NCBI GenBank assembly: GCA_018817385.1
Contig: JAHIUA010000024.1
Span: 1-64,000 of the forward strand
DNA length: 64,000 nt
Reading direction: 5' to 3'
DNA from: Pseudomonadota bacterium
GTDB lineage: Bacteria > Desulfobacterota > Desulfobulbia > Desulfobulbales > Desulfocapsaceae
Positions 24,345 to 44,401 of this stretch are shown in pieces. The position numbers and the translations under genes were made by a program. Within the stretch, counting starts at the first letter, position 1. Each line of letters opens with the position of its first letter. The notes beneath the pieces are model-generated. The model made no database searches. It was given only the letters and a program-made list of their open reading frames with translations, and was not told where the DNA came from.

Positions 24345-26156
24345 TCACGATACCTGTCTGATCGCCAGGGCCAGGTAGCGGTCCCCTTCCTTAAAGAACA
24401 ATTTCTTGTTTGTGAGGTCTTGGAGGAATTTGAGCAAGGTGATTTTACCTACTGTGGTAAAGGTTTTCAGGATTTCTTCCTGGCTGCGTATCTCGCAACA
24501 GAAGAGGTAGATTTTCCTGGATATTTCCTGGAGGCGATGGCGCAGGATCGGACCATTTATCTGTTCCTGGCGGATGAGGAGGAAGGTCCCGCCATCTCGA
24601 TAGGAGAGTGGTGCAAGGCGTGAATTCCGCTGCTCATGAAAGAGTTGCCAGCGGCGAATCTTTTCTTGTACGGGTTGCCAGCGCCTGCGTTGAAGAACCC
24701 GATCTCCTCGATAGTCTTTGATCAGCATATCGAGATCCTGAAGCAGTTCAGGGGGAAAAAGTTTTCTGTTTTTTGGGTGCTGGGTTATTGCCTTGATCCC
24801 GTAGGCGGAGGGATTTTTGGCCACTGGAGAGCCGTGACCAAGGAAAAAAGAGGCGTTGCTGAGTGGTGCAAAGGGGAGAACAAAATCGAGATTTTTCAGT
24901 GTTTCTTCCATCTCCTCCTCACTGCTCCCCGGAAATTCAGTAATGAGATTTCCATCCAGGCGCATTCCAGCTTCAGCGCTTTGGCGCATTGCAGCAATGT
25001 TTTCAATGGCACTGGTCCCCTTGTTCATCTTTTTGAGCAGGCTGGATGAAAGTGATTCAATACCCACTTGCACAGTGGAGAGTCCGCCACGACGATAGAG
25101 CGCAGGGGTGTCTGAATCAGTAATGACCCGGACTTCGGCGAAAAAATCGTAATCTTTTTGCTCCTTGGCGAGGAGTTGGAAAAAATTGTTGGTTTCTTTA
25201 GGGGGCAGGGCATTGTCGGTAAAACAGAAATCCAGGCACTGATGACGCCTGGATTGCTTGATGACCTCTTCTCGTAATGTTTTAGCTTTTTTCCAGCGGT
25301 AACCCTTCCACTGCAGGTTCAGGTTACAGAAGGTACATTTGTTCCACCAGCAGCCCCTGGAAAATTCCAGAGGGAGGACAGGGATAAAGGATTGTCTGGG
25401 AAAACAGTGGTGCATTTCTTGGAAGTAGGGACTGTAGTCTGGTGCCGGCAGGGTGTTGAGATCTGTTATGGCACCACAGGTGTCAGGTATTTCTGCAGTG
25501 GTTTCTCTATTCAGAATCTGAGCTGGCAGTGCTGTTGCCGGATCGGGATTTGCCAGGAATTGGCAGAGATTTTTCAGGGCCTCTTCTCCTTCTCCATTGA
25601 TGACATAATCGATCTGGGGAAAATGCCGGAGAAATGAGACTCCTATTTTGTCTACACAGCCGGATCCACCAATAACTATGGGGAGATTTGGGAACTGTTT
25701 TTTGATGCGTGCTGCCGCTGTAAGGGAAGAGAGCAGTTGGTTGAAACAGATGGAAAAACCAAAAAGATCAAAAGTCTCAAATTTTACAGAAGAGATCCAT
25801 TGATCCAGGTTCTGACTGAGAATCTTACTGGTGACTTGAAAATTGAGCTGCTTGAGAACAGCTCCTTCGCGGCAGCTCTCATAAAAGAGTTGTTCGGCCT
25901 GCGGCGATTGCTCGGGAAAGAGGAGGGGACTGTAGAGGGCCTCTCCAGCCCAGCTGTTCTTGGCCAGATAGTGATAAGTCTCAGTGCCAACGGCCGCCGC
26001 TGCTGCGAGATAGGGGTGGTAGAGGGTTGTTGCAACAGAGCTGTTTTGATCAAGGTAGGCCTTGAGTGCTGCCAGTTGGATGGAAGGACGATTGAAGATC
26101 GACCACGGCATGGACACCAGACCGAGTCGAAACGGATGTTTGTTATTCGTTTTCAT
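24345..26156 (-). CDS. B12-dependent radical SAM enzyme, RiPP-maturation C-methyltransferase type
   Basis: 603 residues. N-terminal cobalamin-binding-like half containing FDLFGFSICFNQ, IVIGGSGCVD and NGEGEEAL, then a radical SAM core with LEFSRGCWWNKCTFCNLN. The cysteine spacing is CX4CX2C rather than CX3CX2C. CWWxxxCTFC sequences are typical of RiPP-maturation radical SAM C-methyltransferases, where longer spacings occur. A helix-turn-helix-like C-terminus follows. No precursor peptide was recognised beside it. Weak ribosome-binding site, so the start is less certain. Stand-alone, with large gaps on both sides. Confidence 0.85.
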   Translation of the reverse strand: MKTNNKHPFRLGLVSMPWSIFNRPSIQLAALKAYLDQNSSVATTLYHPYLAAAAAVGTETYHYLAKNSWAGEALYSPLLFPEQSPQAEQLFYESCREGAVLKQLNFQVTSKILSQNLDQWISSVKFETFDLFGFSICFNQLLSSLTAAARIKKQFPNLPIVIGGSGCVDKIGVSFLRHFPQIDYVINGEGEEALKNLCQFLANPDPATALPAQILNRETTAEIPDTCGAITDLNTLPAPDYSPYFQEMHHCFPRQSFIPVLPLEFSRGCWWNKCTFCNLNLQWKGYRWKKAKTLREEVIKQSRRHQCLDFCFTDNALPPKETNNFFQLLAKEQKDYDFFAEVRVITDSDTPALYRRGGLSTVQVGIESLSSSLLKKMNKGTSAIENIAAMRQSAEAGMRLDGNLITEFPGSSEEEMEETLKNLDFVLPFAPLSNASFFLGHGSPVAKNPSAYGIKAITQHPKNRKLFPPELLQDLDMLIKDYRGDRVLQRRRWQPVQEKIRRWQLFHEQRNSRLAPLSYRDGGTFLLIRQEQINGPILRHRLQEISRKIYLFCCEIRSQEEILKTFTTVGKITLLKFLQDLTNKKLFFKEGDRYLALAIRQVS

Positions 26157-26802: not shown

Positions 26803-27357
26803 TTAGAGACGTGAACAGCGAAGATCAAAGACTGGAACATGGGCACGTTCCTGGTTTTTCCTCACTGCTTCTTCATCAGGTTTGCTTAATACGTAGCGAA
26901 TACCTGCATCTGCAGCGCTTACACGGGTAATGATTTCTTCGGAGTCTCCGATATCCATGATATGTTCGACTTTGATGCCGCGAGCCATGGCCAGGCTGGA
27001 AAACTTTTGAGCATTTGCCCTGGCCATTTCAATGAAGCGGTCACTTTCTCTTGTCCGTCTGTCACCAGAAAACTGCAGTGGTTTATTTGTTATGTCGAGG
27101 GCTATGATCTCACAGTCAAGTCGCTGGGCCATTTTCATTGCGTAATCAGTAACTTGTGACAGGTATTCTCCGTCCTGGATCATGAGCACTTTTGTTGGCG
27201 CATTATTCTGATCTATCATTTTGGCAAGGGCGTCAGCGGCCTTAGACGGACTTCCTGCTGCCATTGCACCTATGGCAACAGATTGTTTTTTGATTTTTTT
27301 TATGTTTACGTCTTTGTTCCTTTTTGTTCCTCGTTTGAACCAGTCTGTGAATCCCAT
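26803..27357 (-). CDS. Universal stress protein-like, 184 aa
   Basis: Usp fold from about residue 50: KVLMIQDGEYLSQVTDYAMK, LDCEIIALDI, the segment DRFIEMARANAQKFSSLAMA and then KVEHIMDIGDSEEIITRV. The N-terminus is a basic tail (WFKRGTKRNKDVNIKKIKK). The usual nucleotide-binding GxxGxxS(9)GS motif is not visible, so ATP binding is doubtful. AAGGGGA site. Confidence 0.75.
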   Translation of the reverse strand: MGFTDWFKRGTKRNKDVNIKKIKKQSVAIGAMAAGSPSKAADALAKMIDQNNAPTKVLMIQDGEYLSQVTDYAMKMAQRLDCEIIALDITNKPLQFSGDRRTRESDRFIEMARANAQKFSSLAMARGIKVEHIMDIGDSEEIITRVSAADAGIRYVLSKPDEEAVRKNQERAHVPVFDLRCSRL

Positions 27358-27972
27358 GTTGTTTTCCCCTTTCTTGAAGGTGGTTGTTAGAATGTAGTGT
27401 TTGTGTCTCTGTATCCTTGTAAAGCATATGCTGTGCCAAGGTAAAATAAATTAAATAATCTATAGTAAACAGTATGTTAGGGTGTTTTTGGGTGCGATGG
27501 TGCAGGGAGCGTTTTAGTGTTAGGCAGTGAGTCATTGCAGCTTGCAACAGCTACCAATTTGAATGCAGTGGAAAAAGCACCTTAATTGACAATGCACAGG
27601 AGAGTAATCGTATGTAATGGTTTGAAAATACATACTTAATATGAGATTAAGAGATGTGGGGCAGAGAGAATCGTTGCATGCTGAAACTGTGTAACAGAAT
27701 GCAACAAAAAAACGTAACTATTCAGTAGCGCCTCATCTTCGTTCCTTGAAGTCTTCTCGAATAGCACGAGTATAACTGAACGAATAGAAGGCACCGCTAA
27801 ACAGGCACAGAAAGGTTTTTCGTCAATTATTGGCCACTACCTGAAAGTTGCAAAAGGTATGATGAGGTGGGCGCAAAGAGGAAAAGAGACAAGGCTCAAG
27901 GCACAGAGGAGTGTGCCTTGGCTATAAGGAAACACGAGGACAACGGTTTGATTTTTACAATTTAAAACCTGC
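27358..27972. other. Intergenic region with MITE-like repeat
   Basis: 615 bp between the lon-like gene end and the usp gene start. Contains the repeat at 27714-27852; otherwise no gene or terminator recognised. Confidence 0.5.
27714..27852 (-). repeat. MITE-like repeat, copy 3
   Basis: Starts GTAACTATTCAGTAGCGCC, contains TCGAATAGCACGAGTATAAC and ends CTGAAAGTTGC. Reverse orientation to the 20574 copy and about 13 bp shorter. Confidence 0.75.
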
Positions 27973-30000
27973 TTATGCCAGCAGGTGTGGGATTGCCTCA
28001 TTGAGCATGTCGACATACACCAAGTCAAGATGTCCGGTAACATCGTCATTCAACGAGGCCACATCTTCCTGATTTTTTGCAGGCAGGATAACCTTCACGC
28101 AACCGGTTCGAACAGCGGCCAGGAGTTTTTCCCGAATTCCGCCGACTGGGAGAACTTGACCGGTAAGGGTCATCTCTCCGGTAATGGAGACGTTACGATG
28201 TACCGGACGGCCCGTGAGCAGGGAAATCAGGGCAATGGCTATGGCGACACCAGCAGAGGGGCCGTCTTTTGAAACGGCACCGGCAGGCAGATGGATATGG
28301 ATATCGGAATGGTCATAAAAGTCAGGAGCGATACCGAGTTGTTCCGCATTGCTTCTGATGTAGCTCAAGGCGGTCTGGGCTGATTCACGCAGTACTTCAC
28401 CCAATGAACCGGTAAGGATGAGATTGGTGTTTCCCCGCATGGTCAGGGCCTCGATAAACATAATTTCACCACCAAATTGGGTCCAGACCAGGCTGGTTAC
28501 TACGCCTATCTTGTTTGCGCCTTCGGCAGCTTCCTGTCGATATTTTCGTGGCCCAAGCAGGGGAGTGATGGAATCTTTGTCTATAATCGGCAAGGATTCT
28601 TGGTCATCATTTTGCAGGACTTGCAGGGCAAGTTTGCGACAGATGGTCCCGATTGTCCGATTGAGGCCGCGTACACCGGATTCTCTAGTGTATTCGACGA
28701 TGAGTTTGCCTATTGCATCATCGGTGATCTGGGGATTGATTTCAGTCAAGCCATTGGCTGTTAACTGTTTGGGCAGGAGATATTTTCTGGCAATAACCTG
28801 CTTTTCCTGGAAGGAATAACTGCAAAAGTCGATCACCTCCATTCGATCCAGCAGGGGGGCGGGAAGTTTTGTGATGTCATTTGCCGTAGCGATGAACAGG
28901 ACCCCGGAGAGATCAAAGGGGATATCAAGATAATGATCGATAAATTTGCCGTTCTGTTCGGGATCAAGAACCTCAAGGAGGAGTGAAGCGGGGTCTCCAT
29001 GGAAATCCTGGCCGATCTTGTCAATTTCATCAAGCATAAAGCAGGGATTTGTGACTCCGACCCGTTTGATTTCGCTCATGATGCGGCCAGGCATGGCACC
29101 GACATAGGTTCTTCGATGACCTCGGATTTCAGCCTCATCACGGAGACCCGCCATGGATAGACGAATAAACTCCCGACCAAGGGAGGTGGCCACAGACTGT
29201 CCTATGGAGGTTTTTCCAGTACCCGGTGGGCCGGACAAGCAGAGGACGGGGCCCTGACTGATCTGTAGCTTTTTCTGCCTGTGCAGAATTTCATCCACGG
29301 TCTCTTTCAGCTCGTCCAGGTGAATCGGTTTTGACAAATAATGGGTTGCCCCCTTGCGCATGGCATCCACAGCATTGGCCACTGTTGCGTAGCCGGTAAC
29401 CATGATCACATCGGTCTCCGGAGACACTTTGGCGATCTTTTCGATAAGGGTGAGGCCATCCATCTTATCCATTTTCAGATCGGTGATCATTATATCAAAA
29501 TGATCACTCTGTTCGATCTGTTGCAGGGCGTCAACTCCGTTAGTCGCTACCTGCACTCTATGGCCAAAATTTTTGAAGTAGAGTTGAAGATTATTGCGGG
29601 CAATCTCCTCGTCATCAACGATCAGTATTCTTGATTTTTGCTTATGCTTCAGGGTCTTGGCGGCAAGGTATTCCAGTATTCGCGTCTTTACTGCTTCAAG
29701 TCCGTAATGGTGTGAGGCCATGATGGATTCGGCTCGCTTGAGATCAAGATTGTCTCTGGTTTCCTTAAACCAGGGCAGCGAGAGCAGTAATTCAATATAG
29801 TTTACACCTATTGAGAATTCAGCTGTAATGGGGTCGGTTTTGTCAAGACGGTCCAACTCGATGCCTATCTGGTGCGCAACATAGGGTGGGAGGTCAGTCA
29901 CAGCCGTCCTGCTTTTGAGATCATCAATCTGCCGTGAGTTGGCTGGTTCCTCAGATCCGGGTGTCTTTGTTTCTGGTGTCTTTTTGGAGAAAAAATGCAT
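27973..30000 (-). CDS. Lon-type protease with inserted receiver domain
   Basis: 675 residues. Residues 36-120 match the helical segment before the Lon AAA+ domain (ILEYLAAKTLK). Residues 124-240 form a complete response-regulator receiver (VDD at 128-130, phosphoacceptor Asp174 in MITDLKM, Lys224 in SKP). The Lon AAA+ domain then resumes (Walker A GPPGTGKT at 257-264, DEIDKIG). C-terminal protease domain has Ser582 (KDGPSAG) and Lys625 (GGIREKLL), 43 residues apart as in E. coli Lon. The N-terminal LAN substrate domain is absent or replaced by a short tail. Likely an ATP-dependent protease controlled by phosphorylation, which is inference. No cognate kinase is adjacent. Confidence 0.92.
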   Translation of the reverse strand: MHFFSKKTPETKTPGSEEPANSRQIDDLKSRTAVTDLPPYVAHQIGIELDRLDKTDPITAEFSIGVNYIELLLSLPWFKETRDNLDLKRAESIMASHHYGLEAVKTRILEYLAAKTLKHKQKSRILIVDDEEIARNNLQLYFKNFGHRVQVATNGVDALQQIEQSDHFDIMITDLKMDKMDGLTLIEKIAKVSPETDVIMVTGYATVANAVDAMRKGATHYLSKPIHLDELKETVDEILHRQKKLQISQGPVLCLSGPPGTGKTSIGQSVATSLGREFIRLSMAGLRDEAEIRGHRRTYVGAMPGRIMSEIKRVGVTNPCFMLDEIDKIGQDFHGDPASLLLEVLDPEQNGKFIDHYLDIPFDLSGVLFIATANDITKLPAPLLDRMEVIDFCSYSFQEKQVIARKYLLPKQLTANGLTEINPQITDDAIGKLIVEYTRESGVRGLNRTIGTICRKLALQVLQNDDQESLPIIDKDSITPLLGPRKYRQEAAEGANKIGVVTSLVWTQFGGEIMFIEALTMRGNTNLILTGSLGEVLRESAQTALSYIRSNAEQLGIAPDFYDHSDIHIHLPAGAVSKDGPSAGVAIAIALISLLTGRPVHRNVSITGEMTLTGQVLPVGGIREKLLAAVRTGCVKVILPAKNQEDVASLNDDVTGHLDLVYVDMLNEAIPHLLA

Positions 30001-30028
30001 GGTTGTCTATCAGTTGAGGGTAAAAGTT

Positions 30029-30076
30029 GTACCTGTCGGGGAGTGATTTAAAAAAAGATCACTCCCCGACAGGTAC
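30029..30076 (-). terminator. Perfect 19-bp inverted repeat between nhaD and the lon-like gene
   Basis: GTACCTGTCGGGGAGTGAT (30029-30047) and its exact complement (30058-30076) flank a T-rich spacer (as read on the minus strand). It lies between the nhaD stop and the lon-like start, ending 29 bp upstream of the start codon. It could be a terminator for nhaD, or an attenuator or operator for the protease gene. Confidence 0.6.
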
Positions 30077-30133
30077 AAAAAAAATAACGGAGTTGCCCAG
30101 GTATTTCTCTTTCGTATCTTCTCTGCTATTCCT

Positions 30134-31552
30134 TTAAAACAGACGACTGTTAATAAATAAATGACAGTAGATACTGGCTCCATATCCCAGAGCTACAATG
30201 GGGGTCCATTTTAAATGGGCCCCAAAGGTATAGTTTCCGCGCGCGGTTCCCATGAGTGCCACACCGGCAGCAGAGCCAATGGAAAGCAGACTGCCGCCAA
30301 CGCCCGCAGTCAGGGTGACCAGCAGCCACTGGCCGACAGGCATTGCAGGATCCATGGTCAATACAGCAAACATGACCGGAATATTGTCAACAATTGCTGA
30401 CAGGACTCCAACCAGGATATTGGCATAGGTGGCACCCAGGCCATCATACATCTGGTGAGAAACCAGGGCAAGGTAGCCAAACTGGGAAAGGCCGCCGACA
30501 CAGAGAATAACTCCGTAGAAAAAGAGGAGTGTATCCCACTCGGCCCGGGCCACTTTTTTGAAAATATCAAAGGGGTCATCTTGAATACTGCAGACTATTC
30601 CCAAGGGTTTATCATATTCAAGGGCGCGTTTCTCTCTTATTTTGATGTAATAGGAGAAAAAGCCCAGATAGGAAAGACCCAGCATCATACCTGCCGCCGG
30701 AGGCAGGTCAAGAAAGTTGTGAAAGGAAACTGCAGTAACAATGGTCATGAAAAAAAGAAACATGATTCGCATGGCGCCGAATTTCATCATCACCTTTTCA
30801 TCCAGGGCCTCAGGTACCTCTTTTGAGACAAAGATGCTCATGATGGCTGCTGGAATAACCCAGTTGAGTAAGGAGGGAAAAAAGAGGTAGAAAAACTGGC
30901 CAAAGGAAGCCTGTCCTTTCTGCCAGACCATGAGGGTGGTAATATCGCCAAAAGGTGAGAAGGCCCCGCCTGCATTGGCACCGATGACAATATTGATACA
31001 GGCCAGGGCGATAAACTTTTTATTATCCTTAGCCACTGCCATAACGACAGCACCCATGAGCAGTGCCGTGGTCAGGTTGTCGGCAACCGGAGAAATGATA
31101 AAGGCAAGAAATCCGGTTAGCCAGAAGATGATGCGCAGAGAAAATCCCCTGGAAACCAGCGAAGAGCGCAGGGCCTGGAAGACATTACGCTCTTCCATGG
31201 AGTTGATATAAGTCATAGCTACGAGAAGGAAGAGTAACAACTCAGCATACTCGGTAAGGTTATGAATAATAGCATTATGTGCCTCTTCAGGTGGAATACC
31301 GGCCGTACGGTAGGTAAGGGCAAGGAGTATCCAGATAATTCCTGCGGCCAGAATCACCGGCTTGCTCTTGCGCAGGTGGGTTTTCTCCTCAAAGATAACA
31401 AGGAGATAGGCGAGAACAAAAATAGCCAGAGACGCATATCCGAGCGAAGTGGCGGTCAGGCTCACAGCTGTTTCCCCCCCACCATGTGCAGCAGCGGCAG
31501 CCTGGCCTGCACCGCCAAGTAGGGCGATGCAGAGCAATAGAAAGATTTTCAT
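30134..31552 (-). CDS. nhaD: Na+/H+ antiporter, NhaD family
   Basis: Multi-spanning inner-membrane antiporter. Start taken at ATG 31552 (AAGGAT upstream; signal-like MKIFLLLCIALLGGAGQAAA); a start at 31591 would add 13 residues. Recognised by LTEYAELLLFLLVAMTYINS, SPVADNLTTALLMG, NIVIGANAGGAFSPFGDITT and the C-terminal GVGGSLLSIGSAAGVALMG. Exchanges Na+ for H+, common in marine sulfur bacteria. It lies 105 bp downstream of an SLC13-type carrier gene, which has its own terminator. Confidence 0.9.
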   Translation of the reverse strand: MKIFLLLCIALLGGAGQAAAAAHGGGETAVSLTATSLGYASLAIFVLAYLLVIFEEKTHLRKSKPVILAAGIIWILLALTYRTAGIPPEEAHNAIIHNLTEYAELLLFLLVAMTYINSMEERNVFQALRSSLVSRGFSLRIIFWLTGFLAFIISPVADNLTTALLMGAVVMAVAKDNKKFIALACINIVIGANAGGAFSPFGDITTLMVWQKGQASFGQFFYLFFPSLLNWVIPAAIMSIFVSKEVPEALDEKVMMKFGAMRIMFLFFMTIVTAVSFHNFLDLPPAAGMMLGLSYLGFFSYYIKIREKRALEYDKPLGIVCSIQDDPFDIFKKVARAEWDTLLFFYGVILCVGGLSQFGYLALVSHQMYDGLGATYANILVGVLSAIVDNIPVMFAVLTMDPAMPVGQWLLVTLTAGVGGSLLSIGSAAGVALMGTARGNYTFGAHLKWTPIVALGYGASIYCHLFINSRLF

Positions 31553-31610
31553 TGCAGATATCCTTATAGGTAAAATTAGAGAATGAAGCAAAAGAGATTA
31601 CGGGCAAGGC

Positions 31611-31652
31611 AAAAAAAAGAGCTGTTCCAAGATTGTCAGCCAAACAGCTCTT
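31611..31652 (-). terminator. Rho-independent terminator of the SLC13-type gene
   Basis: On the minus strand, AAGAGCTGTT pairs with AACAGCTCTT (31643-31652 and 31617-31626) and is followed by a T8 run (31611-31618). It begins 5 bp after the carrier gene stop. Confidence 0.88.
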
Positions 31653-31657
31653 CATGA

Positions 31658-33469
31658 TCAGCCAGTAACACCGTAAAATAACACTATGGAGGCCATCATC
31701 ACCACGAGATAGAGGATGGTCATTCCTGCACCGGCCTTGAAGTAATCTTTTGTCTTGTATCCGCCTGGCCGCATAATCAGGGCATTAACCTGATGGGTGG
31801 GCAGGATAAAGGTATTGGAGCAGGCAACCGCTACCACCAAGGCAGCTATACGGGGATCTGCTCCGGCGCTAGCAGCCATATTCATGGCCAGGGGAACCAT
31901 CAGTACCGTCGCTCCGACATTGGAGGCCACCAGGGTGAAAAACGAGGTCAGAATACCGATTACGGTGAGGAGAATGAGCGGCGAAACATCGCCCATCATG
32001 CCCATGATCGTTTCCGCAATGAGTTTGGCCGCCCCAGTTTTTTCAAAGGCGATGCCCAGGGGAATAAGGCCACCCAGAAGAAAAACGGTCATCCAGTCAA
32101 CAGAGTCATAGGCCTCATCAATGGAGAGGACCTTGGTCAGGATCATGGCCAGAGCTCCTGTGAGCAGGGCAATGGAAAGCTGGACGTGAAAGCCAATGGT
32201 CATCACCAGAGCAAGTATCAGACTGCCCACGGCAAATTTGACCTTGTCCGTGCGGAGAATTTCTCCCTGCACTTCTTCGGTAAAAACAAGATCAGTCCTT
32301 TCTTTGAGATAATGAAATCGTTCCCATGGACCCTGGAGCAGCATGGCATCACCAGCCTGCAGGACCATTGTTGAGATGTCGCCGACAAAAGTCTTGTTGT
32401 CTCGGAACACCGCCAGTGGCATTACGCCATTTTTTTTCCTGAAGGAAAAGGAGCGCAGGGTATGGCCTACCAGTTCAGAACGGGGTGTGATAATGGTCTC
32501 CATGATACCGGCATTGTTCGGCGAGAGACTTTCGGCAAACACCTCCAGATCCTCTTTGATCTGCCAGCCAAAGGATTGGGCCATTTTGGCAACCAGGTCA
32601 GGTGGTCCTTCTACAGCAATTGTATCTCCTCCCTCAATGGTATCGGAATAGTCAGGGGAAGTTACAGGTATTCCCCCCTTGCTGGCTATAGCGAGAATTG
32701 TGGTGAAGAAGATAGGTCTGATCTCCAATTCTTCGAGAGTTTTTGGTCCCTTGAATGACTCAGGTACTTGGATTTCAAAAAGATTTCCTATGTCGTGGTA
32801 TGTTCTTGCAAGTTCCTGCGACATCGGTCCGCTGCCCGTTGTCTCACCCTGTCCGGCAGGAAGAATAAAACGGCCCAAGAGAACGAAATAGATGAGGGCG
32901 GCAATAATCAGCGACATCCCCACTGGAGTGACAGAAAACAGGCCAAATGGCTCGATTTCCGGGGCAGAAATTTTCATCACATCATTGAGCAGAATAAGCG
33001 GGCTTGATCCGATCAGGGTGATACAGCCACCGATAATAGCACAGAAGCCCATGGGCATGAGAATTCGGGAAACCGGGATATTGGTCTGGCGACAGATCCG
33101 CTTGGTAACAGGCAAGAACAGGGCGGCAGCACCGATATTTTGCATAAAACTTGAGATAAAGGCCACTGTACCGGAGATGAGAACCATGATCCTGTTTTCA
33201 CTCTTGCCGGCAAACTTGAGTATGATTCTGGCCAGGTGATTCATGGCTCCGGTCTTATCCAGGCCTGCACCGATAATGATAACAGCAATAATTGAGACAA
33301 CAGCATTACTTGAAAGCCCGCTGATGGCCTCTTTGGGAGTAACCAGTCCCAGCAGGGGGAGAATGATCATCATAATGATGCCGACGACATCGACACGCAC
33401 CCATTCAAAAATAAAGAGTAGAACTGCCAGGCCGAGAACGGCCATGACTAAAACTATTGGTAACGTCAT
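31658..33469 (-). CDS. SLC13/DASS-type ion carrier with TrkA-C domains
   Basis: 603 residues: membrane half, two RCK/TrkA-C-like cytosolic domains (GGDTIAVEGPPDLV and AGDAMLLQGPWERF), then a second membrane half. The motifs SFMQNIGAAALFLP and ASNVGATVLMVPLAM are typical of the SLC13/YbiR ion-transporter group, whose substrates include sulfate and dicarboxylates. Given the setting, sulfate or another anion is plausible but unproven. AAGGAAA site. Upstream of nhaD, with a terminator between. Confidence 0.85.
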   Translation of the reverse strand: MTLPIVLVMAVLGLAVLLFIFEWVRVDVVGIIMMIILPLLGLVTPKEAISGLSSNAVVSIIAVIIIGAGLDKTGAMNHLARIILKFAGKSENRIMVLISGTVAFISSFMQNIGAAALFLPVTKRICRQTNIPVSRILMPMGFCAIIGGCITLIGSSPLILLNDVMKISAPEIEPFGLFSVTPVGMSLIIAALIYFVLLGRFILPAGQGETTGSGPMSQELARTYHDIGNLFEIQVPESFKGPKTLEELEIRPIFFTTILAIASKGGIPVTSPDYSDTIEGGDTIAVEGPPDLVAKMAQSFGWQIKEDLEVFAESLSPNNAGIMETIITPRSELVGHTLRSFSFRKKNGVMPLAVFRDNKTFVGDISTMVLQAGDAMLLQGPWERFHYLKERTDLVFTEEVQGEILRTDKVKFAVGSLILALVMTIGFHVQLSIALLTGALAMILTKVLSIDEAYDSVDWMTVFLLGGLIPLGIAFEKTGAAKLIAETIMGMMGDVSPLILLTVIGILTSFFTLVASNVGATVLMVPLAMNMAASAGADPRIAALVVAVACSNTFILPTHQVNALIMRPGGYKTKDYFKAGAGMTILYLVVMMASIVLFYGVTG

Positions 33470-34290
33470 TTTTTCCTTATTATCCTTTTCTATTCTGAGT
33501 TGTGGTGACCATAGGGCGTCACCTTATATGTAAGGGCAACACTGTTCAGTTTTTTATGAGAGGGGTGGTGGACCGGTAGCGTTCTGAAAACCCGGTATGG
33601 GGGTGGGGTGGATATCCCCGCCCATTTTCTTTTTTCTTCTTTCCTCTTCCATTTTTTCCTCCTTAAAAAAAATATCCAAATATTGTGTAATTCTAGACTC
33701 GTAATGTAGGTTGTGTTTTTGCTAAGCTGTTTGATTGCGAGTGAATTTTATTCTAAATTGCAACCTGTATGCCGTTTTTTCATAAAGCAGATGAAAGCTG
33801 AGAAATGGGTTTGGTGGTCTTGTTTGCTGGACGAGAAAAATGCGAGAAGTTTGAGAGACAACACCGGTTGTTGCAGGGTGTAACACTTTGGTGGAAGAAG
33901 AAGAGAGATTGTTTTAGGGGGGGGGATTGATCGAGAAATGAATAAAATAAAAGGACCATAATCATTTCCCCAGGGCATACTGTTGCATATTAACAACGTT
34001 GCGTATTGTAACAGCGTTGTTAATATGCAACAGTATGCCCTGAGGGGGTAGAGAGGGGTTTTGAGAAACAAAGCTCTTCCCTCTCTTGCAGAGACGGAAG
34101 GATAAAGTCGATCCTGTTTTATTTTTCAGTTGGCCTCAAATTTGCTTCTTATGGAGAATAGACGCTCAATTATTTCTTTCCTGCTTTGGTGACCGATGAA
34201 TCGATATTTTTGTACGAGAAGAGAAGACAACACTCATATGTTCTTATCAGAATCCATTGTTGGGGCCGATCAGGATGGGAGAGAGACCTT
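33470..34290. other. Divergent promoter region with long hairpin
   Basis: About 820 bp between the SLC13-type gene (minus) and the histidine kinase at 34291 (plus). The only strong structure is the 28-bp inverted repeat at 33971-34042. A G/C-rich patch (GGGGTGGATATCCCCGCC) lies near 33604-33625. No gene recognised. Confidence 0.5.
33971..34042. repeat. Perfect 28-bp inverted repeat
   Basis: CAGGGCATACTGTTGCATAT followed by TAACAACG (33971-33998) is exactly complementary to 34015-34042 around a 16-base loop. Not followed by a T-tract on the plus strand. Too long for an ordinary terminator; it may be a small transposon remnant or a regulatory hairpin between divergent genes. Confidence 0.85.
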
Positions 34291-35763
34291 ATGTTTTCCT
34301 TAAATCTACGCCAGAAGATGACCGGCTGTTTTTGTCTGCATCTGTTTTTTTATATTGCTGTTGGAGTGATTTATTTACGAGATTTTGAGATGTTTAACGA
34401 TGAGGTTATCTTGTTGATGCATGCTGGCAGCCTCAGCAATATCAGTCTTGAGATACGACGTTATGAAAAAAACTTTATCATTCGCCATGCTGATGAGGAT
34501 TTTGATAAAGTTCTTGAATATATTAATGATGCGCAGGAAACTGTTCCTCAGGTAATTGGCGAGTTGAAGATTATGTCCCATCCGACCCACCTGGAGAACT
34601 TTCTATTCAAACTGGCGGTTTATGAGGTTGCTTTTCGGGATTATAAACAACATTGTATTCCTGAAAATGAGGTCGCTGTCTGCCCATCACGGGAAAAAGT
34701 ACGTCGTCTGGGGCAGGACATTGTCAGTATCTCCCACGACCTGGTTCTCTTTGAACAGGATAAAATGACCAAATTTATAGCTGTATTGAAAAATCAGCTT
34801 GTAAAAACATTCCTCTTTCTTGTTCTCCTCTCAGTCTTCACCATCACCCTTCTTTATAACTCGATTATCAAGCCCCTGAAAAGGGTCGAGAGCGCCGCGA
34901 GAGACGTTGCCAATGGAACCTTTACCCGGTTGCTGGTAGACGAACAAAGAGGTGAGGTTCGCAGTGTACTTCGGGCGTTTAATAAAATGGTTACTGATCT
35001 GGAAGAACAACAGGAACAGCTCTTTCAGGTAAAGAAACTGTCATCGATTGGCACCCTGGCCTCGGGAACAGCCCACCAGATTAATAATCCCCTTAACAAC
35101 ATTTCAACATCCTGCCAGTTGGCCCTTGCCGAAATAGATGCCGAGCAGAACCCCTTAGTCGCTAGGATGCTGGAAACCATTAAGCAGGAAACACATCGTG
35201 CCGGAGAAATTGTTCGTGGCCTGCTGGAATTCTCCAGGGCCCAGACCTTTTCTCTCCAACCCTATCCGCTGCTGAAAGTTGTTGATAGGGTCCAACAGCT
35301 TGTTGCCAGCGAAGTCCCGTCTGGTATTATTATGGATACCGATATTCCTGAGGATATAATCCTCTTCATCGATGTCCAGAAAATGATCGAAGCCTTGTTG
35401 AATTTGACGATTAATGCAATTCAGGCTATTCCCGAACCGCCCGGTGCGGTCGTTATCGGTGCAGAAATGGATGCAAAGAAAAAAAATGCTATCATTATTG
35501 TCGCTGATACGGGCACGGGAATTGACAAAGAGTCCCTGCCGAAAATCTTTGATCCCTTTTTTACCACCAAAACTGCTGAAAATGGCACTGGTCTGGGGCT
35601 GGCAGTTGTCTATGGTATTATAAAAAAACAAAATGGGTCAATCCGAGTAGAGTCTGAAAAAGGGAAGGGAACCCGGGTTATCATCACTCTGCCACTTTAT
35701 TCAAAGCCCGAAGAAGAGGATTTCTTGGATAAGAGTGAAACAGGGGGGTACCATAATGACTGA
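34291..35763 (+). CDS. Membrane histidine kinase with HAMP domain
   Basis: Start taken at ATG 34291 (GGGAGAGAG upstream; the frame is open from 34186). Two membrane segments (residues about 13-30 and 205-225) flank a periplasmic four-helix-type sensor of about 170 residues. HAMP then follows ([20 protein letters not shown]), then a phosphoacceptor motif [12 protein letters not shown], where the usual HE is HQ, an N-box ([12 protein letters not shown]) and G boxes ([14 protein letters not shown]). Overlaps its regulator by 8 bp. Signal unknown. Confidence 0.9.
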
Positions 35764-37135
35764 CATCAGTAATATTGCAATTCTGCTGGTTGATGACGAG
35801 GTGATAAATGTCCAGAATGTTGGCCTCTTCCTAGAACGGCAGGGGTTTCAGGTAACAACTGCGCTAAGTGGTAATGAGGCAATGGACTTGCTGAGTCAAT
35901 CCCATTTTGATCTGGTAATAACGGATTTGAAAATGGGTGATGTTGGTGGCGTTCAGGTGATGAAGGCTGCCAAAGAGCTCCATCCCGAGATTGAGGTGAT
36001 TATTGTCACCGGCTATGCAACGGTAAACTCTGCTGTAGATGCCATGGCCCAGGGGGCATTCTATTATCTCCCCAAACCAATCAAGCTCAAGGAACTTCAC
36101 ACCCTGGTCCTGAGGGCAACTGAAAAAACAATGTTGCTGCGGGAGATCCGTAGGCTTAAACAGCGTATTAAAGCACAGCAGGGGACGACCCAGTTCATTG
36201 GTCAGAACCCGGCAATACTCGAACTCAAGGATTCCATCGCCCATTTCGCTCAGTTGGAATGTAATATCCTCATCAGCGGTGAAACTGGAACGGGTAAGGA
36301 ATTGGTGGCCAGGACAATGTATGAACTGAGTCCCAGGGCCGACAAACGTTTCCTCCCTATCAACTGCGGGGCCATGACAGAAGACTTGATGGCCAACGAA
36401 TTGTTTGGCCATGAAAAGGATGCCTACACTGATGCCGGCGGATTGCGTAATGGGCTCCTTGAATCGGCAAATGGCGGTGTCGTCCTTTTGGACGAAATAG
36501 GCGAAATGCCCCTCACCATGCAGGTCAAGCTGTTACGGGTTTTGCAGGAGAAAAAAATTATCAGAGTAGGAGGAACCAAAGAGATACCGATAGATGTTCG
36601 TTTGCTGGCCGCAACGAACAGGGATCTCAAAGAAGAAGTGCAAAAAGGGACATTTCGCCAGGATCTCTATTACCGACTCAATGTCGTCAACCTGCATATC
36701 CCGCCACTGCGGGACAGAAAAGACGATATCCCATTACTGGTGAACTACTTTCTGGCAAAATATTCTCTGCCGAATGGACGAAGCAAAAGTATTTCTCACG
36801 AGGCAATCCAACGGTTACAGGATTATGATTACCCAGGTAATGCACGGGAGCTTGAAAACATCATTGAACGCTCCCTGGCCCTTTGTGACAGCACAGAAAT
36901 ACAAACGCAGCACCTTCCGTCGGATCTCAGTCATAGCCGGCATTATCACCCCCAAGGTCTCCAGCCAGTCAATCCAAGCAAGAGCCTGGAAGAAAACGAG
37001 TGTGAATATATCCTCTCAGTCCTTAAAAGCGTTGACGGCAACAGGACTAAGGCTGCCAAGATCATAGGTATCGACAGAGTTTCTCTCTGGCGAAAAATAA
37101 AAAAATACGAAAAGAACGGAATTGAGGTGGAGTGA
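35756..37135 (+). CDS. NtrC-type response regulator with degenerate GAFTGA motif
   Basis: Start at ATG 35756, overlapping the kinase stop. Receiver with LLVDDE, phosphoacceptor in VITDLKMGD and PKP lysine; AAA+ with Walker A GETGTGKE and Walker B VLLDEIGE; Fis-type helix-turn-helix at the C-terminus (AAKIIGIDRVSLWRKIKKY). The sigma54-contact loop reads KDAYTDAGG instead of KGAFTGA, losing both glycines and the key Phe/Thr-Gly arrangement. It may bind DNA without activating sigma54, acting as a repressor or a sigma70 activator like other degenerate members. Confidence 0.9.
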   Translation: MTDISNIAILLVDDEVINVQNVGLFLERQGFQVTTALSGNEAMDLLSQSHFDLVITDLKMGDVGGVQVMKAAKELHPEIEVIIVTGYATVNSAVDAMAQGAFYYLPKPIKLKELHTLVLRATEKTMLLREIRRLKQRIKAQQGTTQFIGQNPAILELKDSIAHFAQLECNILISGETGTGKELVARTMYELSPRADKRFLPINCGAMTEDLMANELFGHEKDAYTDAGGLRNGLLESANGGVVLLDEIGEMPLTMQVKLLRVLQEKKIIRVGGTKEIPIDVRLLAATNRDLKEEVQKGTFRQDLYYRLNVVNLHIPPLRDRKDDIPLLVNYFLAKYSLPNGRSKSISHEAIQRLQDYDYPGNARELENIIERSLALCDSTEIQTQHLPSDLSHSRHYHPQGLQPVNPSKSLEENECEYILSVLKSVDGNRTKAAKIIGIDRVSLWRKIKKYEKNGIEVE

Positions 37136-40170: not shown

Positions 40171-41613
40171 TCATTTCTGGAGAGATATTGGTTGTTCTCT
40201 GAATTGATTCCCATCAATGGTATGCCGGTGCATTATTTTCTGCAGGGCGGCCCTGCTGAGGTGTGACAACCGTGCTGCCAGTGAGACATTGCCATTGCTC
40301 TTTCTGAGTAGTGTAGAGATATACTGGCGAGTAAAGGAATCAAGACAATTGTTTTTTGCTTCCTTATAGGGGAGAATCTCCGCATCTGTCTCCTGTCTTA
40401 AACCGATACCAGGATTCGGTACTGATGATTCTATCATGAGGTGCTGGCTATCAATGACAGGATCAGGGCAGAACAGAACGGCACGGCGGATAACATTCTG
40501 CAGTTCTCTGATGTTGCCTGGCCAAGTGTGCTTGCAAAGTGTCTCAAGTGCCCTCTTAGAGAATCCTTTTTTGCTGCTGTTTAATTCCTTGCGGGCCTTT
40601 TTAAGAAAGTGGTTGGCCAGCAGAGGAATATCTTCTCTGATCTCGAAAAGAGAGGGCATACGCAGGGTGAGGACCTCTAAGCGATAAAAAAGATCTTCCC
40701 TGAATTTGCCTTCATTAATTTTACTCTCCAGATCAGCATTGGTTGAGGCAATAATGCGGACATCAATTTTACTTGAGGTGTCTGCCCCAAGTTGTTTTAT
40801 CTCCTGCTCCTGCAGCACCCTGAGCAACTTTGTCTGTACGTTGACTGGGATATCCCCGATTTCATCTAAACAGATGGTGCCGCCATTCGCCTGGAAGAAC
40901 AGTCCGGCATGGTCCCTGACTGCTCCGGTAAAGGCCCCTTTACGGTAGCCAAACAGCTCTGACTCCAACAGGTGTTCCGGAATCGCCGGGCAGTTGACCA
41001 TGGTAAAGGGTTTTCGTGATCGTTTGCTCAAGGCATGGACAGCCTTGGCGCAGAGTTCTTTGCCTGTTCCGGAAGCTCCACGGATTAAAACAGTATACTC
41101 GCTGTTTGCTGATGTCTGGATGGTCCTGTAAAGTCGCTGCATGGCTGGACTCTGACCGACAAAGTCAGTGACGGGTTCTCCTGAACCTATCCTACTGCGT
41201 AATTTTTTATTTTCATTGAGCAGGTGGCTGCGTTCCAGACCTTTTGTCAGTGTTCTGGTCAGGCTATCGAGTTCCAGGGGTTTGGTCACAAAATCCCATG
41301 CCCCACGGCGAATGGCATCCACAGCCAGCTCTATTGTTCCATAGCCGGTCATTATGATAACGGTCAGTTCCGGGTTTATGTTGTGGATGCGGTCTAGGAC
41401 CTCCAGTCCATTCATTTCCCCCATCATAATATCCATTAACACCAGGGAAATATCCTCTTTTGTCACTATATCCAGTGCTTCTCGACCGCTGGCAGATGTC
41501 AATACTGTCAGGTGTGGAAGTCGTTTTGAAAAGCTTCTTTTCAGGCCGGTGAGGAGGTCCGGTTCGTCGTCAACAAGAAGAAGTTGGGGGAGAGGCAAAT
41601 GGGTGTCAGTCAT
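40171..41613 (-). CDS. Sigma54-dependent response regulator
   Basis: Receiver (LLVDDEPDLL, phosphoacceptor in VLMDIMMG, TKPL lysine), AAA+ with Walker A GASGTGKE, intact GAFTGA (YRKGAFTGAVRDHAGLF) and ICLDEIGD, then a Fis-type helix-turn-helix (AARLSHLSRAALQKIM). Partner of the haem-sensor kinase encoded just upstream; the genes overlap by 4 bp (ATGA). 480 residues. Confidence 0.92.
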   Translation of the reverse strand: MTDTHLPLPQLLLVDDEPDLLTGLKRSFSKRLPHLTVLTSASGREALDIVTKEDISLVLMDIMMGEMNGLEVLDRIHNINPELTVIIMTGYGTIELAVDAIRRGAWDFVTKPLELDSLTRTLTKGLERSHLLNENKKLRSRIGSGEPVTDFVGQSPAMQRLYRTIQTSANSEYTVLIRGASGTGKELCAKAVHALSKRSRKPFTMVNCPAIPEHLLESELFGYRKGAFTGAVRDHAGLFFQANGGTICLDEIGDIPVNVQTKLLRVLQEQEIKQLGADTSSKIDVRIIASTNADLESKINEGKFREDLFYRLEVLTLRMPSLFEIREDIPLLANHFLKKARKELNSSKKGFSKRALETLCKHTWPGNIRELQNVIRRAVLFCPDPVIDSQHLMIESSVPNPGIGLRQETDAEILPYKEAKNNCLDSFTRQYISTLLRKSNGNVSLAARLSHLSRAALQKIMHRHTIDGNQFREQPISLQK

Positions 41614-44150
41614 CGGGTACGTTCTCCTGTGCTTACAGGCAGGGTAACAGTAAATCGTACTCCATTTCCTGGAGTGGATTGAACCTTGATTGTTCCATCA
41701 TGCTCACGAACAATGCCGTAGCTGACTGAGAGTCCTAGTCCTGTTCCCTGTCCCTGCTCTTTGGTACTGAAAAAGGGATCGAAAATTTTGTTGATTATCT
41801 CTTTCCCGATTCCCGGTCCGTCATCCTTGATCTCTATGATAATAGTGCTGTTCTCTGTTCTGGTGCTGATGAAGATATTTCCGCTGTGTTCAATTGCCTG
41901 TTCTGCATTCATGATCAGGTTGAGAAAGACCTGTTGCATGCGTCGGCTATCCATGAAACAAGTCGGGAGCGTCTTGTCCAAGTCGCAGACCAGGTTGATT
42001 TGTTTCTTCAGAAACTGTTGGCGAACCATGGTGAGGACATCTTCGATGGTATCATTGATCGATGCCTCCTGCTTGTCTATTCGGGAGTCTCTACTCCGGG
42101 AAAAATCAAGCAGGTCTGCGACAATACGGCGACAGTTTTCTGCATGGCGTTCAATGGTCGTGATGTCTGCAATGATCTCTTCATTGTCTCTGTTGTTTTC
42201 TTTGATAATGTCTGTGTAACAGAGAATGACGCCCAGGGGGTTGTTGATTTCATGGGCCACTCCGGCAGCCAACTGGCCGACGGCAACAAGTCTTTCGGTC
42301 TGTTGGATCCGACGCTCTGTTTCTTTTAGCGTGGTGACATCTTTAGCAAAACCGATAATGGCACGAACAGAATCGTCATTGTTGAGAATTGGATAGAAGT
42401 AGACATCAAAAATTGAACCGTTATCCAGTTGGATCTCTTCTGTGTGTGGCTTTTTTGCCGAGAGGTCAACTTCTCGTACCCGGCTGCTGAAAAGACATTG
42501 ATGGGGCAGGGAAAGCATATCGACTGTTAGCCCCAGAGCCTCATCGATATGAAGATTATTGCGCAGCAGAAAGGCCTGATTGACCATTTTCAAGGTGCCG
42601 TCCGGAGCCAGGAGAATAAGGGGGTCACTGATGCCATCAAAAACGGACTGGAGAAGTTCGGTACTCTGCCGCAAATTTTGCATATTCTCCAGACTCTCAA
42701 TGGTCATGCCGATTTGCTGACCGATTGAGAGAAGGAGATCCTGTAAGGCCTCGTTTACACCTTCAACGGGGAGTTCGGTCAGAACCATTATGCCCTGCAG
42801 CTGGTTGCGACAGCAAAGGGGGATGCGGATATTGAGGTTGGTATCATTTTCTGAGACGGAGAGCTTCAGGTGACTGCAACTGCTTTTATGTGCATTCGGA
42901 AGGGGGCCACAAAGCTTGGTTGTGCAGGTGAACTCAGGTTCAATAGCGTCGGAGAGCATAGGGGCTTGCTTTGAACATTGAAGAACAAAACCATCAATTT
43001 TGTCATTATAGAGATAAATTCCTCCTCCGTTTGCCGGAATAACCTGGAGAACTTCGTTGAGCACCTGGTGGAGGATGGTCTGCAGGGTGTCTGTTCGGGT
43101 GATAAGGCTAGTCAGCGTTGTGTGGAGTGTCAGTTCTCTGTTTCTTTTCTTCACCTGGGCCTGGAGCTGGTTTTCTGAGCGTTTCAGTGCTTCTGTCCGT
43201 TCAGCGACCATGACTTCCAGGTTGTCGGCATAGCCGACAAGTTGTGAGCGGTTATCTTGGAGTTTCCTTATCAGGGTTCTGGCACTGTGAAACAGCTCTT
43301 CGAGTTCTTCTCTGTGCCCTTTGAATTCTTTCGGTAATGGTGTTGCGCCGCTGTCATCCATACTGGTACGAAATAAGGTCACCAGGTCGCGTAGGTTAGT
43401 GATGATCAGTTGATGAAAAAAGAGCCAGATCGTGCCATAGAGGAGCAGGGCCAGGATCAGGACTATGCCGAACATTCGAAAAGAGGTCTGCCTGATTTGA
43501 GCAAGGCTTACTTCCAGGGGGATGGAGATGGAAAAAAGGCCTGCGATCTCATTTGCCTGTCGATAGAAACCTTGAGTCTGTCCATATGATTCACTGATGG
43601 TGGCTGGCGCTTCATCAGGACTTCCATGGCAGTGCAGGCAGGAGTCCGTGAAAGTCACTGGACGATACAGGGTGTAATAGGGGACAGAGGCAACCTGTGT
43701 CATGCCGTGCCATTCGTCTGAATGGGGATTTCTCCGAAAATAGTCTATCATTTTTTGTTCCTCCACGTTTGCCTCAAAACCTGGATTCCTGGCACCGAGG
43801 GCCACGCGTCGGTACTTGAAGGAGGGAACTTTTTCTTTGAAGCGATCCATGATGATTCGAGTGATATAAGAGGTTGACATCGCTTCGATAACAAAGTGGT
43901 CATCGCCAAATTCTTCATACATGCGTGGCCGTAGTACCTCTCGGATATACTCTCGGGTCGACTCCAGACCGGCCATGACCAGTTCGGTCTGTCTGAGGGC
44001 CTCTTCTTCCAATAGATTTTTTTGAAAATGATAGATAATGGTCGCTGTGAAGAGGCAGAAGCAGAAGAGGATGACCCCTAAACCAACCTGAAACCGTATT
44101 TTGAGGTTGTGTTGATCTTTGTTGGCAAGGTCCCGGATAATATCTTTCAT
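41610..44150 (-). CDS. Haem-c sensor histidine kinase (Tll0287-like domain, GAF, PAS)
   Basis: Start at ATG 44150 (GGAGTTTC upstream; the frame is open to 44255). Two membrane segments flank a periplasmic Tll0287-like (DUF3365) domain with a c-type haem motif CLHCH, so it probably senses redox state or a ligand through haem. Then HAMP-like and coiled-coil segments, GAF (about residues 340-500), PAS, HisKA (GVAHEINNPLGV) and ATPase (NLIMNAEQAI, GTGLGLSV). 846 residues. It shares its sensor with the kinase-like protein at 50629. Confidence 0.9.
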   Translation of the reverse strand: MKDIIRDLANKDQHNLKIRFQVGLGVILFCFCLFTATIIYHFQKNLLEEEALRQTELVMAGLESTREYIREVLRPRMYEEFGDDHFVIEAMSTSYITRIIMDRFKEKVPSFKYRRVALGARNPGFEANVEEQKMIDYFRRNPHSDEWHGMTQVASVPYYTLYRPVTFTDSCLHCHGSPDEAPATISESYGQTQGFYRQANEIAGLFSISIPLEVSLAQIRQTSFRMFGIVLILALLLYGTIWLFFHQLIITNLRDLVTLFRTSMDDSGATPLPKEFKGHREELEELFHSARTLIRKLQDNRSQLVGYADNLEVMVAERTEALKRSENQLQAQVKKRNRELTLHTTLTSLITRTDTLQTILHQVLNEVLQVIPANGGGIYLYNDKIDGFVLQCSKQAPMLSDAIEPEFTCTTKLCGPLPNAHKSSCSHLKLSVSENDTNLNIRIPLCCRNQLQGIMVLTELPVEGVNEALQDLLLSIGQQIGMTIESLENMQNLRQSTELLQSVFDGISDPLILLAPDGTLKMVNQAFLLRNNLHIDEALGLTVDMLSLPHQCLFSSRVREVDLSAKKPHTEEIQLDNGSIFDVYFYPILNNDDSVRAIIGFAKDVTTLKETERRIQQTERLVAVGQLAAGVAHEINNPLGVILCYTDIIKENNRDNEEIIADITTIERHAENCRRIVADLLDFSRSRDSRIDKQEASINDTIEDVLTMVRQQFLKKQINLVCDLDKTLPTCFMDSRRMQQVFLNLIMNAEQAIEHSGNIFISTRTENSTIIIEIKDDGPGIGKEIINKIFDPFFSTKEQGQGTGLGLSVSYGIVREHDGTIKVQSTPGNGVRFTVTLPVSTGERTR

Positions 44151-44401
44151 AAAAGAAACTCCATAACATTGTTTCCCAATCAGTTGCAGTGCATTCACAA
44201 GTATACACTTTATGTATGCATGTGCAAACTCGCGGAGGCACTTTGTCGCGGCCATATCGATGGGTTTTCGGGGGTCAAAATTGGATAGTGTTTTCGTGTC
44301 AACAGGTTACTGGTACAGGGGGTTTTTGTTTCAGTCAGGAACGGTATTTGCTTGTTTATGGAAAATACCTACCACATATAAACCTTATTCCGGAGTCTGT
44401 A

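Follow-up and report, generated by a model that had tools for sequence, protein, structure and literature searches.

Within the 64,000-nt stretch of DNA analysed here (the window), we identified a Lon protease that carries a complete two-component receiver domain (REC) inside its own chain and lacks the LAN domain. The gene for this protein, REC-Lon, lies together with genes for a histidine kinase and a sigma-54 NtrC-type response regulator (positions 27973-37135). We consider it likely that REC-Lon provides the proteolytic arm of a stress system with three components, in which the kinase would address both the NtrC-type regulator, with its sigma-54 regulon, and REC-Lon, gated through D174.

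The REC-Lon ORF encodes 675 amino acids without an internal stop. Pfam assigned residues 125-235 to Response_reg (E 1.7e-28 for the whole protein), 253-390 to AAA, 415-468 to Lon_lid and 473-674 to Lon_C (E 3.8e-77), and the protein scored 707 bits against the NCBIfam equivalog TIGR00763 (lon, endopeptidase La), for which the curated cut-off is 608. A LAN match was absent from the seven Pfam families listed for it, and the LAN region itself is gone: 23 residues stand ahead of residue 24, compared with 246-347 in 33 uncut ordinary Lons. The phosphorylation site of the receiver is intact (D129/D130, D174, T202 and K224), and so are K263 in Walker A, D324/E325 in Walker B and the protease residues S582 and K625, the former within the motif SKDGPSA, of the PKDGPSA type; labels other than those of D174, K224, S582 and K625 follow the usual assignments in these families. 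The sequence-only reading had described a complete receiver between the helical region and the Walker A of a Lon with an intact Ser582/Lys625 pair and no LAN domain, and this description held throughout, including the coordinates 27973-30000 and the numbering of D174, K224, S582 and K625.

The receiver, about 125 residues long, sits just before the Walker A strand of Lon, where ordinary Lons have three residues in the alignment (36 of 36 rows, hence 33 of 33 distinct sequences, L001, L002 and L004 being truncated copies of L203, L202 and L204, respectively). The flanking helices '...HYGLEAVKTRILEYLAAKTL' and strand 'GPVLCLSGPPGTGKT' both align with ordinary Lons from the same and related genomes. 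An AlphaFold monomer model built on a 37-row alignment (mean pLDDT 81.6, pTM 0.75; below 50 at residues 1-19 and in three short loops, one of them beside the catalytic Ser) contains a complete receiver of five strands and five helices, the last of which (228-248) runs into AAA beta1 (252-256); because the model is a monomer, coupling of the receiver to the ring is not visible in it. Fold comparison placed LonA chains on top (best Z 33.2, rmsd 2.8, 519 aligned), with the match starting at about residue 21, and 4ypn, a fragment comprising the three-helix bundle and the AAA-alpha/beta domain, aligned with model residues 22-394. The three-helix bundle is thus retained, with the loss limited to the part before it.

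The architecture proved to be that of a family. Of 99 distinct sequences, L017 (internal stop), L030 (an ordinary Lon) and L084 (fragmented) were set aside; the remaining 96, all of at least 500 amino acids and including the window's own, share it, which rules out an assembly or annotation artefact as the source of REC-Lon. D129, D130, D174 and K224 are invariant in all 96, some of which are merely about 49% identical to the window protein, and at position 202 there is a T in 94 sequences and an S in the other two. Walker A and B, sensor 1, the arginine finger, sensor 2 and the pore-loop Tyr, the last four at positions that presumably correspond to these elements, are likewise present in 96 of 96, and S582 and K625 are found in every row that reaches them (95/95 and 94/94, respectively). 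The Walker A motif is GPPGT in 30 of 34 REC-Lons, whereas it is GPPGV in all 36 ordinary-Lon rows. In a quick tree search on the Lon part, with the receiver columns excluded, 34 chosen REC-Lons split from 33 ordinary Lons with an SH-aLRT of 100; on this sequence evidence the REC-Lons are one clade, present in Desulfobacterota and Nitrospirota. The search for REC and Lon combinations that the sequence-only reading had proposed therefore shows that the window protein is not a one-off.

A match spanning the receiver turned up in 89 of the 257 genomes sampled from the class and in 48 of the 395 from the phylum, two overlapping samples (the raw tallies of 91 and 49 include matches that start after the receiver, in G061 and G135 for the class and G261 for the phylum), and such matches also occurred in 24 of 198 genomes from the phylum of a Nitrospirae MAG. 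At E <= 1e-165, the identical query and cut-off that gave these matches returned none in 369 Gammaproteobacteria genomes (the class of L120's genome) or in 140 genomes from the phylum to which L133's genome (Labilithrix) belongs, although the sample or the cut-off may miss some REC-Lons, since PMC3333781 reports relatives in Thioalkalivibrio and Dechloromonas. In L017/L086 the frame is broken by one TAG about 120 residues in, either a pseudogene or an assembly error. At the N terminus (window 29970-30000), 89 of the 96 REC-Lons have the motif [FWLIV]F with a K or R shortly after it, and F4 is kept in 91 of 96 although the residues after it vary; this short aromatic motif is perhaps an anchor or a docking element. 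The Usp-like proteins (26803-27357 in the window, and its relatives) frequently start with MGF-x-x-W, somewhat like the aromatic start of REC-Lon.

Table 1. Features of the REC-Lon region, in coordinates of the 64,000-nt window
Feature	Position	Strand	Remarks
Usp-like protein, 184 aa	26803-27357	-	Sequence reading, no Pfam match; own conserved sigma-54-like site
Sigma-54 -24/-12-like site, upstream of Usp-like gene	27423-27438	-	TGGCACAGCATATGCT
Palindrome GTTGCA-N3-TGCAAC, three copies upstream of Usp-like gene	27534-27705	.	Candidate enhancer; 27534-27548 and 27673-27687 (1 mismatch each), 27691-27705 (2 mismatches)
REC-Lon	27973-30000	-	LonA protease (three-helix bundle, AAA+, lid, Ser-Lys protease) with inserted REC, without LAN
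REC insert of REC-Lon	29260-29631	-	Residues about 124-247; phospho-Asp D174; predicted alpha5 228-248 leads to AAA beta1 252-256
NhaD-type Na+/H+ antiporter	30134-31591	-	Upstream of REC-Lon, same strand; NF038006, E 2.3e-178
SLC13/CitMHS-type transporter with TrkA_C domains	31658-33469	-	First in probable operon
Sigma-54 -24/-12-like site, upstream of SLC13-NhaD-REC-Lon	33759-33774	-	CGGCATACAGGTTGCA; first base off consensus
Palindrome GTTGCA-N3-TGCAAC, two copies between the divergent promoters	33870-34012	.	Candidate enhancer; 33870-33884 (1 mismatch), 33998-34012 (2 mismatches)
Sigma-54 -24/-12-like site, upstream of kinase gene	34131-34146	+	TGGCCTCAAATTTGCT
Histidine kinase	34186-35763	+	HAMP, HisKA, HATPase_c; HBM below cut-off; probable phosphodonor
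NtrC-type response regulator	35735-37135	+	REC, sigma-54 AAA, Fis HTH

The kinase and NtrC genes are divergent from the minus-strand genes for the SLC13 transporter, NhaD, REC-Lon and the Usp-like protein (Table 1). The SLC13, NhaD and REC-Lon genes probably form a single operon, and the true start of the kinase may lie downstream of the annotated TTG (34186). Taking up to 10 kb on each side of the locus, and thresholds set by similarity to the window's proteins, we found both a kinase and an NtrC-type regulator at 30 of 39 named REC-Lon loci. Among the 32 loci whose flanks total 8 kb or more, 27 have both (one or both partners being missing by these criteria at the other five), and among the 14 flanked by 7 kb or more on each side, 11 do. 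Both partners were also present at 18 of 20 REC-Lon loci from related genomes, compared with one of 20 ordinary-Lon loci, and the kinase match reaches the contig end in both misses; there is some overlap between the named and unnamed sets, because four of the 39 named loci (L068, L070, L086 and L116) repeat genomes found in the genome search. At one locus (L220, 2733-8470, genome G024), an ordinary Lon of 778 amino acids, with its N-terminal part and no receiver, is located beside a kinase and an NtrC-type regulator that is 51% identical to that of the window, and a REC-Lon is encoded elsewhere in the same genome; this is perhaps a related, unfused layout of Lon, kinase and NtrC. The window also encodes a radical SAM protein downstream of the cluster, with a B12-binding match below cut-off (24345-26156), and, close by at 40171-44255, a second pair of kinase (Tll0287-like sensor, PAS) and NtrC-type regulator.

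The receivers themselves suggest which kinase may be involved. Among the 136 other receivers reported from the same genome, the best match to that of REC-Lon was the receiver of the neighbouring NtrC (48% identity, 90.9 bits), with the runner-up at 39% and 83.7 bits. The second kinase-regulator pair was considered as a partner and rejected, its receiver being a weaker match (37%, 68.9 bits). When the L118 receiver was used as query in four other genomes, the top two receivers were in each case that of REC-Lon and one within about 6.5 kb, which lies in the NtrC ORF in L118 and L072 and was judged by position and frame length in the other two. A tree of 164 receivers placed 96 from REC-Lons and 49 from neighbouring NtrCs on one side and, on the other, 19 other receivers from the window's own genome, which were the nearest to the REC-Lon receiver in the own-genome search (support 98/82). 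The second NtrC copies of L187 and L189 fall at the base of the REC-Lon/neighbour-NtrC side; they score 102 bits against a profile of REC-Lon receivers, against which most neighbour-NtrC receivers reach at least 136 bits and those of L059, L061 and L064 120-121 bits. REC-Lon receivers are not one clade in this tree, as nine of them, seven from Nitrospirota, group with NtrC receivers, which might reflect gene exchange or an artefact of the 119 alignment columns. Because the two kinds of receiver are so alike, they are likely phosphorylated by the same kinase, and the kinase encoded next to NtrC is probably the one for REC-Lon. A single kinase would then probably phosphorylate twin receivers, one for transcription and one for proteolysis.

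We also mapped putative regulatory sites in the cluster. Sigma-54-like matches were hardly above chance across the window (47 vs 37 expected), so the case for promoters rests on the conserved place of the sites. A strict pattern (TGG[CT]-N8-TGC[AT]) was present 62-101 nt upstream of the Usp-like gene at 20 of 20 loci (81 of 6300 random windows, 1.3%), and around the kinase start at 14 of 21 loci (324 of 6300 random windows, 5.1%). Before the SLC13 gene, it was found at six of 17 loci and was absent from the window; under a variant with a looser first base and a tighter remainder, all 17 loci having the upstream region carry a site (150 of 6300 random windows, 2.4%). None of 21 loci has a sigma-54-like site before REC-Lon itself. 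Two similar sites occur in each of L182 (6583 and 8062) and L193 (7280 and 9093), perhaps marking tandem Usp-like genes in some relatives. The SLC13 gene and the Usp-like gene are thus predicted to be under sigma-54 control, their sites being conserved in relatives.

The palindrome listed in Table 1 recurs in the same places. With up to two mismatches, it was found upstream of the Usp-like gene at 20 of 20 loci, of the kinase at 21 of 21 and of SLC13 at 16 of 17, as against 10-13% of random windows, the loci being related, the motif having come from the very regions used for the count, and the kinase and SLC13 counts overlapping because the divergent genes have one intergenic region in common. 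It was upstream of REC-Lon at none of 21 loci and of NhaD at two of 13. Five of the six copies in the window fall in the two intergenic regions of the cluster, and, to judge from its place next to sigma-54-like sites, the palindrome is probably what the neighbouring NtrC-type regulator binds. Genome-wide, 17 sites with at most one mismatch were found, vs five for the reversed control, and three of the 17 are in the REC-Lon cluster. A larger regulon was considered and rejected: by a simple ORF list, 11 of the other 14 sites are inside ORFs and three between them, and ten of the 14 have no sigma-54-like site within 300 nt. The sole candidate outside the cluster, both between ORFs and near a sigma-54-like site (C41:43313, L229/L238), precedes a gene whose start resembles, by eye, a phosphate-binding-type protein.

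The sequence-only reading had known of no characterised bacterial example, which is too strong. In PMC3333781 (2011), Desulfovibrio vulgaris DVU3303-3305 is described as a three-component system of a response regulator with a Lon protease, a histidine kinase and a sigma-54 response regulator, and the window carries the same set of parts. Orthologues of that regulator are given there for some Desulfovibrio, Thermodesulfovibrio yellowstonii, Thioalkalivibrio and Dechloromonas, mostly alongside the Lon-receiver gene. The targets of DVU3305, according to PMC4641369, are its own operon, DVU3303-3305, and DVU3302-3298. The targets of the system include genes with UspA-type domains and an anion transporter, DVU3299, and resemble the predicted targets in the window. 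In a 2023 transposon study (PMC10102598), DVU3303-3305 have pairwise cofitness >0.9, and each of the three is detrimental in chlorate. Since DVU3303-3305 are described as a single operon, polar insertions could account for part of this cofitness. DVU3299 is itself important in chlorate in the same source, which does not fit simple activation of DVU3299 by the system. Among the matches listed from the open-licence literature, we found no REC-Lon biochemistry (phosphotransfer, ATPase or proteolysis), and the terms 'receiver', 'response reg' and 'two-component' are absent from the main text of a survey of serine-protease architectures covering two deltaproteobacterial genomes (PMC2605481). What is known of the system comes mainly from the genetics of a single sulfate-reducing species, and to this the present analysis adds the insertion site, the conservation, the twin-receiver evidence and the promoter map.

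We propose that the membrane kinase would autophosphorylate upon some envelope or ionic stress and hand its phosphate to the two closely related receivers, that of the NtrC-type regulator and that inside Lon. Phosphorylated NtrC would bind the palindrome and fire the sigma-54 promoters of the kinase-NtrC genes, the transporter-REC-Lon operon and the Usp-like gene. In REC-Lon, phosphorylation of D174 would shift the receiver against the AAA+ core by way of the long alpha5 that continues into AAA beta1, and the hexameric protease would become active on substrates that it selects without a LAN domain. An NtrC-like switch is the most economical reading of the anatomy, because a long helix connects an NtrC-type receiver with the Walker A strand. 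That the kinase directly gates a processive ATP-dependent protease through a coupling borrowed from NtrC-type proteins, and that throughout Desulfobacterota and Nitrospirota twin receivers drive transcription alongside proteolysis, seems to us somewhat more likely than not. Direct control of proteolysis by a histidine kinase, as the sequence-only reading had it, is well supported by anatomy and context, namely the invariant phosphorylation site, the kinase and NtrC neighbours and the twin receivers, and as a statement about control stays a prediction.

As to the sign of the switch, we favour, with some confidence, a protease that is on with phosphate. The opposite sign, in which the unphosphorylated receiver leaves Lon active and phosphate shuts it off, so that a substrate degraded under calm conditions is spared under stress, is unlikely but the strongest of the alternatives: the invariant phosphorylation site is compatible with either direction, and AAA+ regulators whose receiver precedes the motor can be controlled negatively or positively, the receiver of group I enhancer-binding proteins being able to prevent the ring from forming, promote its assembly or cover the ATP site (PMC4878744). 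Yet losses of Lon, kinase and response regulator give the same phenotype in D. vulgaris, which is easiest to explain if phosphorylation activates all outputs, even if polarity could blur this result. The same observation bears on a feedback device, in which phosphorylated REC-Lon would degrade the NtrC-type regulator, the kinase or the Usp-like protein and so end the response. Co-location and a probable operon with members of the regulon are in keeping with such a role, but simple negative feedback is disfavoured relative to activation, because loss of Lon in D. vulgaris resembles loss of the kinase or regulator, with same-sign phenotypes and high cofitness (polar insertions again being possible), and we regard it as rather improbable. 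That the receiver merely serves docking or oligomerisation, replacing the lost LAN domain as a docking surface with no phosphorylation-dependent function, is very doubtful given its invariant D129/D130/D174/K224 across such divergent sequences and the persistence of kinase neighbours across loci.

Regulated proteolysis is usually coupled to signalling by separate adaptors. A Lon with its own receiver would, if the proposal is true, place the protease itself under kinase control, which would be a natural way to make degradation switchable. With twin receivers and a compact candidate regulon, kinase, signal and substrates become directly testable, and the layout of the window, in which REC-Lon is transcribed apart from the kinase and NtrC, offers a means of avoiding the polarity that complicates the D. 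vulgaris case. There, the three genes are given as one operon, whereas in the window REC-Lon stands behind the transporters and divergent from the kinase-NtrC pair. REC-Lon shares with LonA (TIGR00763) the three-helix bundle, AAA+ motor, lid, Ser-Lys protease and catalytic residues; it differs in the absence of LAN, the receiver before AAA beta1 and the usual GPPGT in place of GPPGV. The NtrC-family enhancer-binding proteins NtrC1 and LuxO, like REC-Lon, have a receiver directly N-terminal to an AAA+ motor, and by analogy the receiver of REC-Lon, which is of NtrC type and closest to that of the neighbouring NtrC, may control its motor in a similar way. However, the AAA+ of REC-Lon is that of Lon and serves proteolysis, and its receiver lies between N-terminal helices and beta1 instead of at the N terminus. 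Finally, RssB and CpdR, whose receivers match REC-Lon in NCBIfam, also link two-component signalling to an AAA+ protease, but they are separate adaptor proteins for ClpXP, whereas the receiver of REC-Lon is built into Lon itself.
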